Assembly (NCBI GenBank): GCA_040753875.1
Contig: JBFMDV010000025.1
Coordinates: 124,001 to 188,000 of the forward strand
From: Candidatus Zixiibacteriota bacterium
Lineage (GTDB): Bacteria > Zixibacteria > MSB-5A5 > GN15 > FEB-12
Direction of reading: 5' to 3'
DNA: 64,000 nt
A program made the translations under genes and the position numbers. Each line of letters begins with the position of its first letter. The first letter of the stretch is position 1. Shown here one piece after another: positions 6,268 to 10,871 of the stretch. The notes below the pieces were generated by a model that did not search any database, had not been told where the DNA came from, and saw only the letters and a program-made list of their open reading frames with translations.

Positions 6268-8946
6268 ATGTACCTTAAACCTGTTGTGCGAGTCAATCAT
6301 TCAGTGCGGTGCCGTTTCGGGCAAGTTAAATATCGTGTGTTTCTGCTGGTCATGGTGCTGTTCGCGCACGGCGCCGCGATGGGTGCCGACACCCTGCGAA
6401 TAGGAGGGGTCGATGGCCCTGATCCTGCCGACGACCGGCGGACCTATCCTGTGTTGTTGGCTCTGTCGGGTGGCGGAGCGCGCGGCCTGGCCTCCATCGG
6501 AGTCCTGAAGGCATTCGAAGAAAAAGGGATTCGCGTTGCGGCCGTCGCGGGAACATCGATGGGCGGCGTCATCGGGGGCCTCTACGCGTGCGGCTATTCG
6601 CCCGACGACCTCCGGCGCATCATGCGGCAAACGGATTTCAACAGCCTCTTCACCAACGAGCCGGCTCGCTCCACCATGTTCCTCACCCAGCGTCAGGAAC
6701 GGGACCGACATCTCCTGTCCATCCGCTTTCGAGGACTCCGCCCGCACATTCCACAGGGACTGACCGCCGGACAGAAGCTCACGTCGCTCCTTGCTGAACT
6801 GACTCTTCCCGCCACCTATCGCGCCGGCGGCGATTTCGGACGGTTTCGTATCCCGTTCAAAGCTGTTACTACCGACGTAGCCAGCGGCAACATGGTCGTC
6901 CTGTCTCAGGGCTCGCTGGCCGAAGCCATGCGCGCGACCATGGCGTTTCCATTGGCCTTTACCGGTCTCGACCGTGACCACCAACTGCTTATGGATGGCG
7001 GCATGGTGATGCCGATTCCAGTCGAGATTGTCCGTCAGATGTGTGACTCTGTCCCCCTCGTTGTGGCGGTCAATACCACCAGCCCCCTCCTGCCCAAGGA
7101 AGAATTGAGCACGCCGGTCGATATCGCCAACCAGGTCACCACCATCATGGTAGCCGACCAATTACGCGCGCAGTTGCACATGGCAGACTTCGTCCTGCAG
7201 CCGGTAACTGACAATTACACCTCAACAAGTTTCGCTGAAAAGGAGAGCATCATCGATGGCGGCTATCAGGCCGGACTTCTCGCAGCCGACAGTATCATTG
7301 TGCTGAGTAAGGCAATGCAGGAAGGCGGCCGTCTTGTGGTGAATGGCATTACGCTCTCATCGCGCGCAGCGGTCGACTCCAACGCGATTGCACAACATTT
7401 TGTCGGACTTCGTTTCAACCGGCAGGAGTTGGCCGACTCCCTCAAAAGCATCACTCGGCAGTACGGCCTGTTTGAGATCCGCGCCTGGTTTGATCAACCG
7501 TTTCAAGGCGAATCGAACAGCCGGTCGGAAGCACGAGCAGCCAAGCTTCACATCGATGCCTACCCATGTCTGCCTGCGAGCAAGGTACGATTTCAGTTCC
7601 AAGGGATCAGCAGTTTCACCGAAAACGAACTTCTGTCCATTATGCAGCTTCCGGATACCGCATTGTCGCCCCCGGTCCTTCGGTCGGGACTGATGCGCAT
7701 CATCGACCATTACCGCCGCGACGGTCATGATCTGGCGAACATCAAACACCCCGAGGTCGTTCACGACAGCAGCCTGGTGCGAGTCGAGATCGATGAAGCG
7801 ATCATCCGGCGAATCGTGGTAAAGCAGAACAGACACACGCGCGACTGGTTTGTCCGCTCGTACCTTCCTCTCAAGGCCGGCAAGCCGTATTCCACCGGCG
7901 CCGCGGCACGGGGGATTGCCGATATCTATGGCACCGACCTGTTTGACCGGGTTGGTTTTGATCTGCAACCGGCCGGCGACAGCGCTGTTATGACCATCAC
8001 CGTCGACGAGAAAAACTACTCGCAGGTCCGGTTGGGCTGGCACTGGCATGACGAGTACAAATCCGAGGAATTCGCCGAGCTGCTCAACGACAACTGGCTG
8101 GGGATGGGCGTCGAATATCAAATGCATGGTCGGTACAGCGACCGTCGGCGCGAACTGTTCGGCGAACTGAAAGCCAACCGCATATTTGCCACCTATCTCA
8201 CCGGACAGGTTCGGCTCTACGGCACCCGCCTGGTGCGAGTGATGTACGACGTCGAAGGCAACGAGCAGGGCATGCGCACGGAAAAACGCTTCGGCGGCTT
8301 CCTTCGCTTCGGACAGCAGATAGCCCGCCTGGGTACGGTAACGGGTCGCTTTCTGCGTGAGCAGGTGTCGTATGTCAGCGGCGATCCCGCGGTCGAGAGT
8401 CACTGGCAACGGACCAGCTTCTCCCTTGAGTCGTTGGTCGAGACACTCGACCGCTGGCCGTTTCCCGAGTCAGGCAAGAAGCATCAGTTTGAACTCGAAG
8501 CCGCGGTGAAGTTCCTTGGCGGCGAGGCCCAGTACACCCGGCTGCATTGGTCTGTGGAAGCCTATTTCCCGATTTCTGCCCGGCTCAACTATCATCCGCG
8601 ATTCGCACTTGGCTGGTCTCGCGACGGCCTGCCGCCGTCTGAACGATTCTATGTCGGCGGGCAGCGCTCGTTTGCGGGCTATCGCACCGATCGCCTCTCC
8701 GGCGACAAAATGATCCTGGTCAACCAGGAATTGAGACTGGCGCTGCCGTTGCGGTTCTATGCGACGGCTCAGTACGATCTCGGTGAAGTGTACACTATCA
8801 CCGATGATATCAAGCTCCGTAATCTTCGTCACGGCCTCGGAGTATCTCTGGCATTCGATTCCCCGCTTGGGCCGGTGGAACTCGGCTACGGGCGGGCGGA
8901 AAATGAGAGTGACCGCCTCTACTTCTCCGCCGGCCTTGATTTCTGA
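6268..8946 (+). CDS. PlpD-like patatin phospholipase with POTRA and Omp85 barrel
   Basis: The 892-residue protein has a signal sequence ending near HGAAMGA, then a patatin domain (about residues 60-370) with the oxyanion motif SGGGARG, nucleophile GTSMG (Ser about 97) and catalytic Asp in MDGGM (about 243). About residues 435-590 resemble one or two POTRA repeats. The C-terminal 300 residues form an Omp85/surface-antigen barrel with FYVGGQRSFAGYR and a final aromatic strand ending in F. This is the architecture of type Vd autotransporters such as PlpD, in which the lipase is exported through its own barrel. The start is uncertain: ATG 6268 abuts the divergent trmH start, and GTG 6304 gives an equally good signal peptide. 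Confidence 0.85.
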   Translation: MYLKPVVRVNHSVRCRFGQVKYRVFLLVMVLFAHGAAMGADTLRIGGVDGPDPADDRRTYPVLLALSGGGARGLASIGVLKAFEEKGIRVAAVAGTSMGGVIGGLYACGYSPDDLRRIMRQTDFNSLFTNEPARSTMFLTQRQERDRHLLSIRFRGLRPHIPQGLTAGQKLTSLLAELTLPATYRAGGDFGRFRIPFKAVTTDVASGNMVVLSQGSLAEAMRATMAFPLAFTGLDRDHQLLMDGGMVMPIPVEIVRQMCDSVPLVVAVNTTSPLLPKEELSTPVDIANQVTTIMVADQLRAQLHMADFVLQPVTDNYTSTSFAEKESIIDGGYQAGLLAADSIIVLSKAMQEGGRLVVNGITLSSRAAVDSNAIAQHFVGLRFNRQELADSLKSITRQYGLFEIRAWFDQPFQGESNSRSEARAAKLHIDAYPCLPASKVRFQFQGISSFTENELLSIMQLPDTALSPPVLRSGLMRIIDHYRRDGHDLANIKHPEVVHDSSLVRVEIDEAIIRRIVVKQNRHTRDWFVRSYLPLKAGKPYSTGAAARGIADIYGTDLFDRVGFDLQPAGDSAVMTITVDEKNYSQVRLGWHWHDEYKSEEFAELLNDNWLGMGVEYQMHGRYSDRRRELFGELKANRIFATYLTGQVRLYGTRLVRVMYDVEGNEQGMRTEKRFGGFLRFGQQIARLGTVTGRFLREQVSYVSGDPAVESHWQRTSFSLESLVETLDRWPFPESGKKHQFELEAAVKFLGGEAQYTRLHWSVEAYFPISARLNYHPRFALGWSRDGLPPSERFYVGGQRSFAGYRTDRLSGDKMILVNQELRLALPLRFYATAQYDLGEVYTITDDIKLRNLRHGLGVSLAFDSPLGPVELGYGRAENESDRLYFSAGLDF

Positions 8947-8992: not shown

Positions 8993-9021
8993 TTGACACC
9001 GGACCATCAATAGCGTATTGT
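8993..9021 (+). promoter_or_regulatory. Sigma70-type promoter in the 8.95-9.7 kb gap
   Basis: A perfect TTGACA (8993-8998) is separated by exactly 17 bases from TATTGT (9016-9021). The predicted start of transcription is near 9028. It drives a unit of about 460 nt that ends at the strong hairpin at 9456. Confidence 0.7.
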
Positions 9022-9181
9022 TTATATGAGAAGGGTCACTACGAATAATACCGCGCCGGCCCCCTCCCTCACGGGTGGCCGACTCAGCGCAGACCTGAAA
9101 ACGGAACATTCCCTAAGTCCCCATCCTTCACCCTTCAGTGTTATACGTGGACGTATAGCCCTAAAGAACGGAGGAACAACT

Positions 9182-9238
9182 ATGGCAAATTGGTCTTGCT
9201 GGCCACACGTCGAGTACAGTCCTCGTCGGCGTCAGTGA
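9182..9238 (+). CDS. Possible 18-residue peptide with strong ribosome binding site
   Basis: The start ATG is preceded by the near-ideal Shine-Dalgarno aacggaggaac at 6-base spacing. The product would be MANWSCWPHVEYSPRRRQ. Two tryptophans, a cysteine and a basic tail in so short a peptide would be compatible with a leader peptide or a small functional protein, but nothing homologous is recognised. It sits in the middle of the transcript that starts at about 9028 and ends near 9485. Confidence 0.3.
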   Translation: MANWSCWPHVEYSPRRRQ

Positions 9239-9455
9239 AGACAAGTGTAAACATGGATTGGGGCGCGGAACCTCCACTCGAGTTGCACGCCCAGGGCCGA
9301 ACTGGGTCAGGGAAACGACCCCGCCTGTTGGCTCAGACAGGTATGTCTCCGATCGGCACGCTTACCTATCATCCTATCGGAGCAAACAGTTCAGCCAATT
9401 TAAGAGTGACCCGGCGCCGGTGATGGCGCCAACCATATATCCGCAGTACGAACGA

Positions 9456-9490
9456 CCCGGCGGCAAGTTATGCCGCCGGGTTTCGTCTTA
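9456..9490 (+). terminator. Strong Rho-independent terminator
   Basis: A perfect 10-bp stem (cccggcggca with tgccgccggg) around a 5-base loop is followed by tttcgtctta. It closes the transcript started at the promoter at 8993. The 9491-9703 interval after it holds no gene or recognisable element. Confidence 0.8.
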
Positions 9491-9703
9491 GACCATACCC
9501 TGTGGCGTCGCTCCCATACTTGTGTCTCCCTTTGCCTCGGACTAACCCAGGGAATCAATTTCCCTTTGAGCAACCCCTGCACAGTTTCCTCTCGGAGTTC
9601 CTTGCTGCACAACGAGTAACAGTTGCCGGGAGAGAACACCGTCCTCTATGGCATCCCCGTTGCAATTATCCCCGTCTGACAGGACCAAACTATTCAGGCT
9701 GGG

Positions 9704-9940
9704 ATGAGTATTATGAAGGTCAAGTTCGTACTTACTATGGACGACGTTGAAGTGGACAACCGGAAGATCGACCAGCTCATTATGGACTGGGAGACGGATG
9801 TCGACCAGCAGGAGATACTCGAAGTGTCCCACCAGTGGATTACAACCCAGAATTTCCTCACCAGGCGGATGATCGGCCTCACCCGCGTCGGCGAATCCTC
9901 GCTGACCATTGAACCGCTCGAAGAGGGCGGGAATGCTTGA
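9704..9940 (+). CDS. Small acidic protein of unknown function
   Basis: The 78-residue product is acidic and soluble, with no membrane segment, cysteine or known motif (it contains MDDVEVDNRKIDQL and a centre rich in Trp and Gln). A second ATG three codons later (MKVKFVLTMDD) is an equally good start. No strong Shine-Dalgarno is seen. Its stop overlaps the start of the next gene (ATGCTTGA), so translational coupling with the small membrane protein is likely. I do not recognise a family. Confidence 0.5.
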   Translation: MSIMKVKFVLTMDDVEVDNRKIDQLIMDWETDVDQQEILEVSHQWITTQNFLTRRMIGLTRVGESSLTIEPLEEGGNA

Positions 9941-10253
9941 ACACGCCGCTGCGATCGTGCGCAGCATATTTGAATTCGCAGAACAGAATGTCGGCGCCCT
10001 CGAATCGGCGCGGGATTACATTCTGCAGCGATTCGGCCAGAATGGCCTCTACGCCGCCTATGTGGTTCTCGGCGTGCTCGGGGCGGTCATCCTATATCGC
10101 CTGGTTAAGATAAGTCTGCTCGCGATCAAGTATCTGGTAGTGCCTTCTGTGGTGCTGGCGCTTCTGGCTTCGTTCGTTCTGCCGTATTCCTTTTCGACTA
10201 TCCTCCCGATCACCGTTACGCTGTGCTCGCTCATGCTCCTGGTGAAGGCCTGA
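9933..10253 (+). CDS. Small two-helix membrane protein of unknown function
   Basis: The ATG at 9933 follows agggcggga and overlaps the previous stop. The 106-residue product has an amphipathic N-terminus (about residues 1-38) and hydrophobic stretches at about residues 40-60 (YAAYVVLGVLGAVILY) and 65-105 that make two or three membrane helices. It probably works with the preceding 78-residue protein because of the overlap. No enzymatic or transport motif is visible. Confidence 0.5.
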   Translation: MLEHAAAIVRSIFEFAEQNVGALESARDYILQRFGQNGLYAAYVVLGVLGAVILYRLVKISLLAIKYLVVPSVVLALLASFVLPYSFSTILPITVTLCSLMLLVKA

Positions 10254-10424
10254 GCCCTTTCACCTTCCTTTTCTGTCCATACACTGAACCATAATTCTCA
10301 AAACGCAAACGCCGGTCGAAACAAGCTTCCCTCTGTCCGACACAACCTTACGTCATTTCGGATGATTGGGCCGTTCTCTCGCAATCATCATCGCTCAAAG
10401 GAATTCAACAACCGGAGATAGGCG

Positions 10425-10871
10425 ATGAACAGCCCTGTTACATGTGTAAATTGCGGCCACGACCTTGAACAACGACGAGGCGTCTGGCTCTGCCCGACCT
10501 GCAACACCGAGGCCGCCAGTTTCCTTCCGTTCCGCGACGACACCGATCAGGAAGGATTCGTGCTCATAGACTGCCCGGGCGCCACGCTGTATCAGCCGGG
10601 AACCGATACAATCGTGGCCGGCGCGAAGTTCCTCGACGAAGACGACCCGGTCAAAGGGTTTGAGATTGTCGACCACGCCGTATTCGCGCCGACTCATACC
10701 AAGCGCCGACGTATCAAAATCGAGGCCCTGGGCAAGATTCGACGCTGCCAGGGATGCCAGGACCTCACGGTCCGGATGCGCCGCCGCGAGGGACCGGACT
10801 TCTTCATCCCGTCGCCGAAACACCCGGGGCGAAAGAAACTGAAATCGGTCACCCCGCGGTCCAGCGGCTGA
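10425..10871 (+). CDS. Zinc-ribbon protein of unknown function
   Basis: The 148-residue product begins with a zinc ribbon, CVNC at residues 7-10 and CPTC at residues 23-26, and has a third pair, CQGC, near residue 107. The C-terminus is very basic (RMRRRE, KHPGRKKLK), which suggests binding to nucleic acid or another polyanion. The start is supported by ggagata 6 bases upstream. The 170 bases before it hold no visible signal. The gene has no clear operon partner and the family is not recognised. Confidence 0.6.
   Translation: MNSPVTCVNCGHDLEQRRGVWLCPTCNTEAASFLPFRDDTDQEGFVLIDCPGATLYQPGTDTIVAGAKFLDEDDPVKGFEIVDHAVFAPTHTKRRRIKIEALGKIRRCQGCQDLTVRMRRREGPDFFIPSPKHPGRKKLKSVTPRSSG

Follow-up and report, generated by a model that had tools for sequence, protein, structure and literature searches.

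Between a patatin/Omp85 gene (6313–8943) and a small gene, p78, the 64,000-nt stretch of Candidatus Zixiibacteriota DNA analyzed here (hereafter, the window) carries a promoter and a terminator that bracket about 460 nt without a convincing protein. The sequence-only reading of this locus had proposed either a novel regulatory RNA or a leader peptide system, which raises the question of whether the RNA or its short open reading frame (ORF) is the meaningful product. Our comparison among relatives argues for a conserved and structured unit of transcription in its own right, in which the translation start is also kept, and the product that counts is probably the RNA rather than a protein, because the ribosome site in many relatives yields at most a few amino acids.

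Transcription unit upstream of p78

The elements named in the sequence-only reading were recovered in the window (Table 1). The promoter, the 18-codon ORF, and the Shine-Dalgarno (SD) sequence that it had called ideal were all present, and the terminator, described as a perfect 10-bp hairpin, turned out to have perfect arms of 11 nt each (9455–9465 and 9471–9481, separated by 5 nt). The hairpins were likewise confirmed; the RNA (9026–9490) folded at −181 kcal/mol with a z of −4.3, none of 100 shuffled sequences was as stable, and the fold of the window sequence alone predicted a branched RNA with a long-range closing helix. In this single genome, the promoter was not beyond chance (3 promoter-like sites vs 1.4 ± 1.2 expected in shuffles), the T-tract of the terminator was poor (TTTCGTCTT), and the terminator was unlisted in the sequence-signal scan, with clean T-runs occupying the same place in relatives. 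Conservation rather than a single-genome score lifted the promoter above chance, and comparison among relatives turned a weak single-genome case into a strong one. A second small hairpin (CCACA...GTGG / GGGA...TCCC; window 9490–9530) seemed to trail the terminator in many relatives.

Table 1. Features of the RNA unit and of the adjoining p78 region, in window coordinates
Feature	Position	Strand	Remarks
Sigma-70 promoter of the RNA, TTGACA-17-TATTGT	8993..9021	+	Equivalent promoter in relatives
Predicted RNA	9028..9485	+	Start placed ~7 nt past the -10 box and end placed at the terminator; fold; unit in relatives
C-rich stretch	9124..9136	+	Predicted SD pairing partner; pairing not above control
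SD sequence, GGAGGA	9170..9175	+	Core conserved; A/U-rich stretch immediately upstream in relatives
18-codon ORF	9182..9238	+	ATG at 9182 kept among relatives, peptide sequence not; the window lacks the early stop seen in relatives
Hairpin after the AUG	9193..9242	+	Begins 10-14 nt past the A of ATG in most relatives
ACCTATCATCC motif	9364..9374	+	Common to part of family f1
CGCAGTACGA motif	9442..9451	+	Directly before the terminator; consensus CGNAATACGA
Intrinsic terminator hairpin	9454..9482	+	Found in 43 of 46 distinct rows (window included)
Near-palindromic site, TTGCTGCACAACGAGTAA	9602..9619	+	In the spacer; strongly conserved in the alignment of relatives
Sigma-54-type promoter of the p78 genes, GGCAT-N5-TTGCA	9650..9664	+	Pattern in 64 of 76 loci
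p78	9713..9940	+	75-aa protein MKVKFVLTMDD...; constant neighbour of the RNA

The earlier statement that the unit resembles no common RNA class also held, since no Rfam 15 family matched the window over the gathering cut-off, and opened thresholds (E up to 5) added two chance-level hits (E 1 and E 4.2), one of them on the other strand. The genome's RNase P RNA (RF00010; contig C20, 270 bits), of which bacteria usually have a single gene, and tmRNA (RF00023; contig C4, 175 bits) were located elsewhere, and ARAGORN found no tmRNA in the window.

Conservation of the unit and its linkage to p78

BLASTN searches of 60 relatives with the intergenic region matched only the window's own genome; because the sequence was too divergent for this approach, synteny was needed to find homologues. 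A protein search with the patatin/Omp85 gene revealed four relatives with the same gene order and a gap of similar length, and alignment of these gaps revealed a common promoter, SD-ATG pair, CGNAATACGA motif, and terminator. The patatin/Omp85 gene was usually not adjacent to p78 in relatives. A search with p78 identified this gene in 46 of 54 family genomes and at 76 loci in titled GTDB records, most of them named Zixibacteria, and the full unit (sigma-70 promoter, SD and AUG, hairpin, and terminator) was situated ~200–240 nt upstream of p78 in relatives. Comparison of homologous intergenic regions, a check that the sequence-only reading had suggested, showed a unit at p78 loci with its position and structure kept.

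Within family f1, 42 of the 44 genomes that have p78 carried the unit upstream of it: 35 by a match to the profile R1 at the right place and 7 more by pattern or by eye (G006 at L049, G062 at L034, G007, G010, G019, G036, and G070). As for the remaining two, the contig of G033 ends too early, and G025 (locus L033) has p78 with coding-like sequence upstream instead of the RNA. L034, which belongs to the same genus as L033, carries the RNA. The profile search placed the unit in at least 6 of 15 f4 genomes. Among the 76 GTDB loci, the unit was present at 42 (41 with the SD-ATG pattern at the expected distance, plus L086 by profile) and was not found at 34, mostly with a more divergent p78 and in part on contigs that end early. 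p78 is also present in Zixibacteria where the RNA was not found.

The profile R1 represents the SD-ATG core by sequence only (41 rows, 68 positions) and was built without structure because the first 43-row alignment misaligns the hairpin; L049 (at a contig edge), L107, L056, L088, and L133 were left out of it. When R1 was run over 79 whole genomes without reference to p78, 30 loci were obtained, 29 of which adjoined p78, including loci in genomes whose copies were not in the profile; the thirtieth (L171) was an ordinary coding gene, and matches in outer-class genomes stayed at background level. A second R1 match (G075:C65:74270-74318; E 8.8e-5) occurred in a genome already holding a p78-linked copy. 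Duplicate loci within one genome were removed, and for the counts over 40 distinct rows, six rows that were at least 75% identical to a retained row or came from the same close group were removed as well. A promoter score of 8.5 or more was reached in 37 of the 44 rows whose sequence extends 100 nt or more ahead of the SD (the window being one row). A terminator was detected in 26 of 29 rows, and in these 26 it ended 192–230 nt before the base aligned to window position 9704. Judged by these sequence comparisons, the unit appears to be a single-copy gene with a predicted RNA of ~320–510 nt in most rows. It has so far been seen in Zixibacteria only and is inherited together with the p78-p106 genes.

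The conserved gene set that follows (9713–10868) comprises p78, the hydrophobic p106, and a protein with cysteine pairs, none with a Pfam family. p78 is ~70–85% identical across genera; searches of Pfam, NCBIfam (over cut-off), and PHROGs assigned it to no family, and the genes after it gave no informative family matches. Its AlphaFold model (mean pLDDT, 74.5) had no Foldseek match at E 0.001 and no VIA-align Z of 5 or more, so that the model names no function. The pattern GGCAT-N5-TTGCA, which we take to be a promoter of the sigma-54 type, is preceded in the spacer by the near-palindromic site, a possible activator site for this promoter. Both are strongly conserved in relatives, and p78-p106 look activator- and sigma-54-controlled. 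The linkage of the RNA to the p78 genes suggests that they share a common physiological task.

Translation start, early stop codons, and the downstream hairpin

The translation start was kept among relatives, and the peptide was not. ORF length ranged from 1 to 55 codons over the 46 rows with no shared peptide, so the product of the 18-codon ORF, whose conservation had been put forward as a test of the earlier proposal, is not conserved. Exactly two codons were present in 17 of the 46 rows. Among the 40 distinct rows, 20 had an in-frame stop within codons 2–4, as opposed to 3 rows in one out-of-frame reading and 5 in the other; the p value for this frame bias (3e-8) is too small, since related rows were counted as separate. 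The early stops use different codons and all three stop codons, yielding M-stop, ME-stop (UGA, UAA, UAG), MK, MD, MI, MII, MIE, MGP, and MGS, and this variety suggests that the stop itself, not a nucleotide motif, has been kept. Sites of the AUG-GAG-UGA type occur, for example, in L060 and L039. Two loci, L110 and L159, have a second ATG six bases after the first; L110 was read from the second in the early-stop count and from the first in the ORF-length survey. The later-found distinct rows L159, L165, G007, and G019 stand outside the 40-row counts, and three of them, L159 (from the second ATG), L165, and G007 (by eye), also stop by codon 4.

The layout of a bacterial minigene (strong SD, start, one to four codons, and stop), in the sense of a stop soon after an SD-led AUG, is therefore seen in half of the distinct rows and not in the window; the absence of an early stop in the window and in 22 of the 46 rows indicates that it is not needed everywhere. 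A p78+p106 tree had low resolution, with strong support for 8 of its 43 inner branches. On this tree, an early stop is present in each of the six rows that form the deepest clade, and no fewer than 10 changes of the trait are needed. The early stop looks ancestral and repeatedly lost, the window included, with the direction of change inferred from this tree. Kept among the rows are the ribosome site and, in half of them, a near-immediate stop codon.

The hairpin after the AUG was kept despite unrelated sequences among the rows. An uninterrupted stem of at least 10 pairs was found in 14 of 40 rows vs 1.0 expected (none of 40 shuffled sets had more than 4), and a stem of at least 8 pairs in 23 of 40 vs 7.2 expected. 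Mean folding z was −1.3 for the 95 nt from the ATG and −1.8 for the middle part of the RNA. Compensatory changes, another check raised in advance, were sought with RNAalifold on five close groups. Compensated pairs appeared in several helices (the terminator, the post-AUG hairpin, and local stems), but many pairs were broken in the groups of three, and no whole-length consensus structure was common to all groups. Sequestration of the SD by the upstream C-rich stretch was also considered, but its pairing (0.797) was no stronger than with shuffled flanks (0.792), and an SD switch is thus not supported.

A candidate ribosome-loaded RNA and its alternatives

The reading that we prefer, with roughly even confidence for and against, is that of a structured, essentially untranslated, lineage-specific RNA that acts in trans and is loaded with a ribosome at the minigene, the ribosome shielding an A/U-rich stretch. 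The RNA would be transcribed from its sigma-70 promoter and ended at its own terminator, and a ribosome would be loaded at the strong SD and AUG. In many relatives, translation would terminate ahead of the hairpin, with only one to three codons read, and the ribosome held at the site would keep nucleases away from the A/U-rich stretch that precedes the SD, setting the life and activity of the RNA. The RNA may then act in trans; its partners or targets would most likely be connected with the p78 operon. Such shielding is modelled on the protection proposed for leader minigenes of E. coli (PMC8708949). A bolder and more tentative version would see here a ribosome-programmed noncoding RNA spread across a bacterial order, with a strong initiation site, often a near-immediate stop, and a hairpin at the ribosome edge, on which ribosomes start, stop, and stay; it could serve as a ribosome-bound regulator or could sense the capacity for initiation and termination, in either case with a tie to a sigma-54 operon.

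The strict linkage and order of the RNA and p78, together with the nearly constant distance from the terminator to p78, would also suit a cis-acting leader, an attenuator in which some sigma-70 transcripts continue past the terminator into p78-p106, depending on how the tiny ORF is translated. We regard this as unlikely. p78 has its own sigma-54-type promoter and conserved upstream site, which could alone explain the constant distance; the start codon precedes the terminator by ~200 nt or more, and p78 follows the terminator at ~200–240 nt; and neither the length nor the peptide of the ORF is conserved, at odds with the conserved leader peptide of an attenuator. The complement of the terminator 5′ arm within the RNA reached 6.6 uninterrupted pairs vs 6.9 in shuffles (38 rows; uninterrupted pairings only). 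The leader peptide half of the original proposal is not supported, and the novel regulatory RNA half is, as the unit is conserved, independently promoted and terminated, structured, and without an Rfam match.

A further trans-acting reading, in which the AUG is irrelevant and GGAGGA and UAUGGAG bind CsrA so that the RNA titrates this protein like CsrB/RsmZ, seems improbable to us. CsrA is encoded in 38 of 41 genomes, with a single gene in that of the window, two ANGGA-like sites are situated at the core, and ANGGA occurred 3.7 times per RNA vs 2.0 expected; however, GGA motifs were hardly enriched (8.6 vs 7.5 expected), the SD/AUG core itself probably accounts for the surplus, and the frame-specific early stops would be left unexplained. 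We hold it to be no likelier that the unit is a lineage-specific 6S RNA or another housekeeping RNA missed by Rfam models. Its single copy and strong promoter would fit, and the slot looks empty, with no 6S RNA (RF00013) hit in 13 genomes including the window's, an absence that says little because the control search was positive in only 5 of 14 known genomes. 6S RNA is about 180–200 nt, a rod with a central bubble, whereas the RNA here is about twice that length and predicted to be branched, and RNase P RNA and tmRNA are found elsewhere in the same genome. A dual-function RNA whose real product is the window's 18-codon peptide is very improbable despite the strong and well-spaced SD, as the 46 rows share no peptide and, in 20 of the 40 distinct rows, the ORF is closed by codon 4 at the latest.

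Our literature search on small RNAs of Zixibacteria returned nothing relevant, and no description of the unit came from searches on start-stop, minimal, or two-codon ORFs in bacteria; most subscription journals lay outside this search, which is accordingly no proof of novelty. With this unit, a phylum for which no relevant small-RNA literature was found gains a structured RNA family not described before. If ribosome loading at a start-stop element is the working part of the RNA, we know of no earlier minigene whose conservation lies in a stand-alone RNA and not before a gene, and a plain test of what start-stop elements do would become possible.

Among known systems, CsrB/RsmZ resemble the preferred reading in that CsrA is present in the host and two GGA sites lie at the core, but here GGA is hardly enriched, and the only CsrC (RF00084) hit was at chance level on the other strand. 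SgrS and RNAIII, the latter of a size similar to the RNA here, are likewise independent structured transcripts with a ribosome site; their peptides, tens of residues long, are conserved, whereas no peptide is conserved here. GOLLD, ROOL, and OLE are larger than the RNA here. They are large structured bacterial RNAs outside the housekeeping set (PMC12286853), a likeness to our unit, which differs in having no Rfam match, belonging to a different lineage, and carrying a ribosome site. A parallel in design is offered by the two-codon minigenes of bacterial leaders, axe-txe mg2 and ler of the EHEC LEE1 operon (PMC8708949), which act in cis, possibly by mRNA protection, and combine a strong SD, an AUG, one sense codon, and a stop, with the ribosome, not the peptide, thought to be important. 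Unlike these minigenes, which stand just before a protein gene, the predicted transcript here contains no protein gene and stops at a terminator of its own, a conserved hairpin follows the start site, and the element has been kept across genera.
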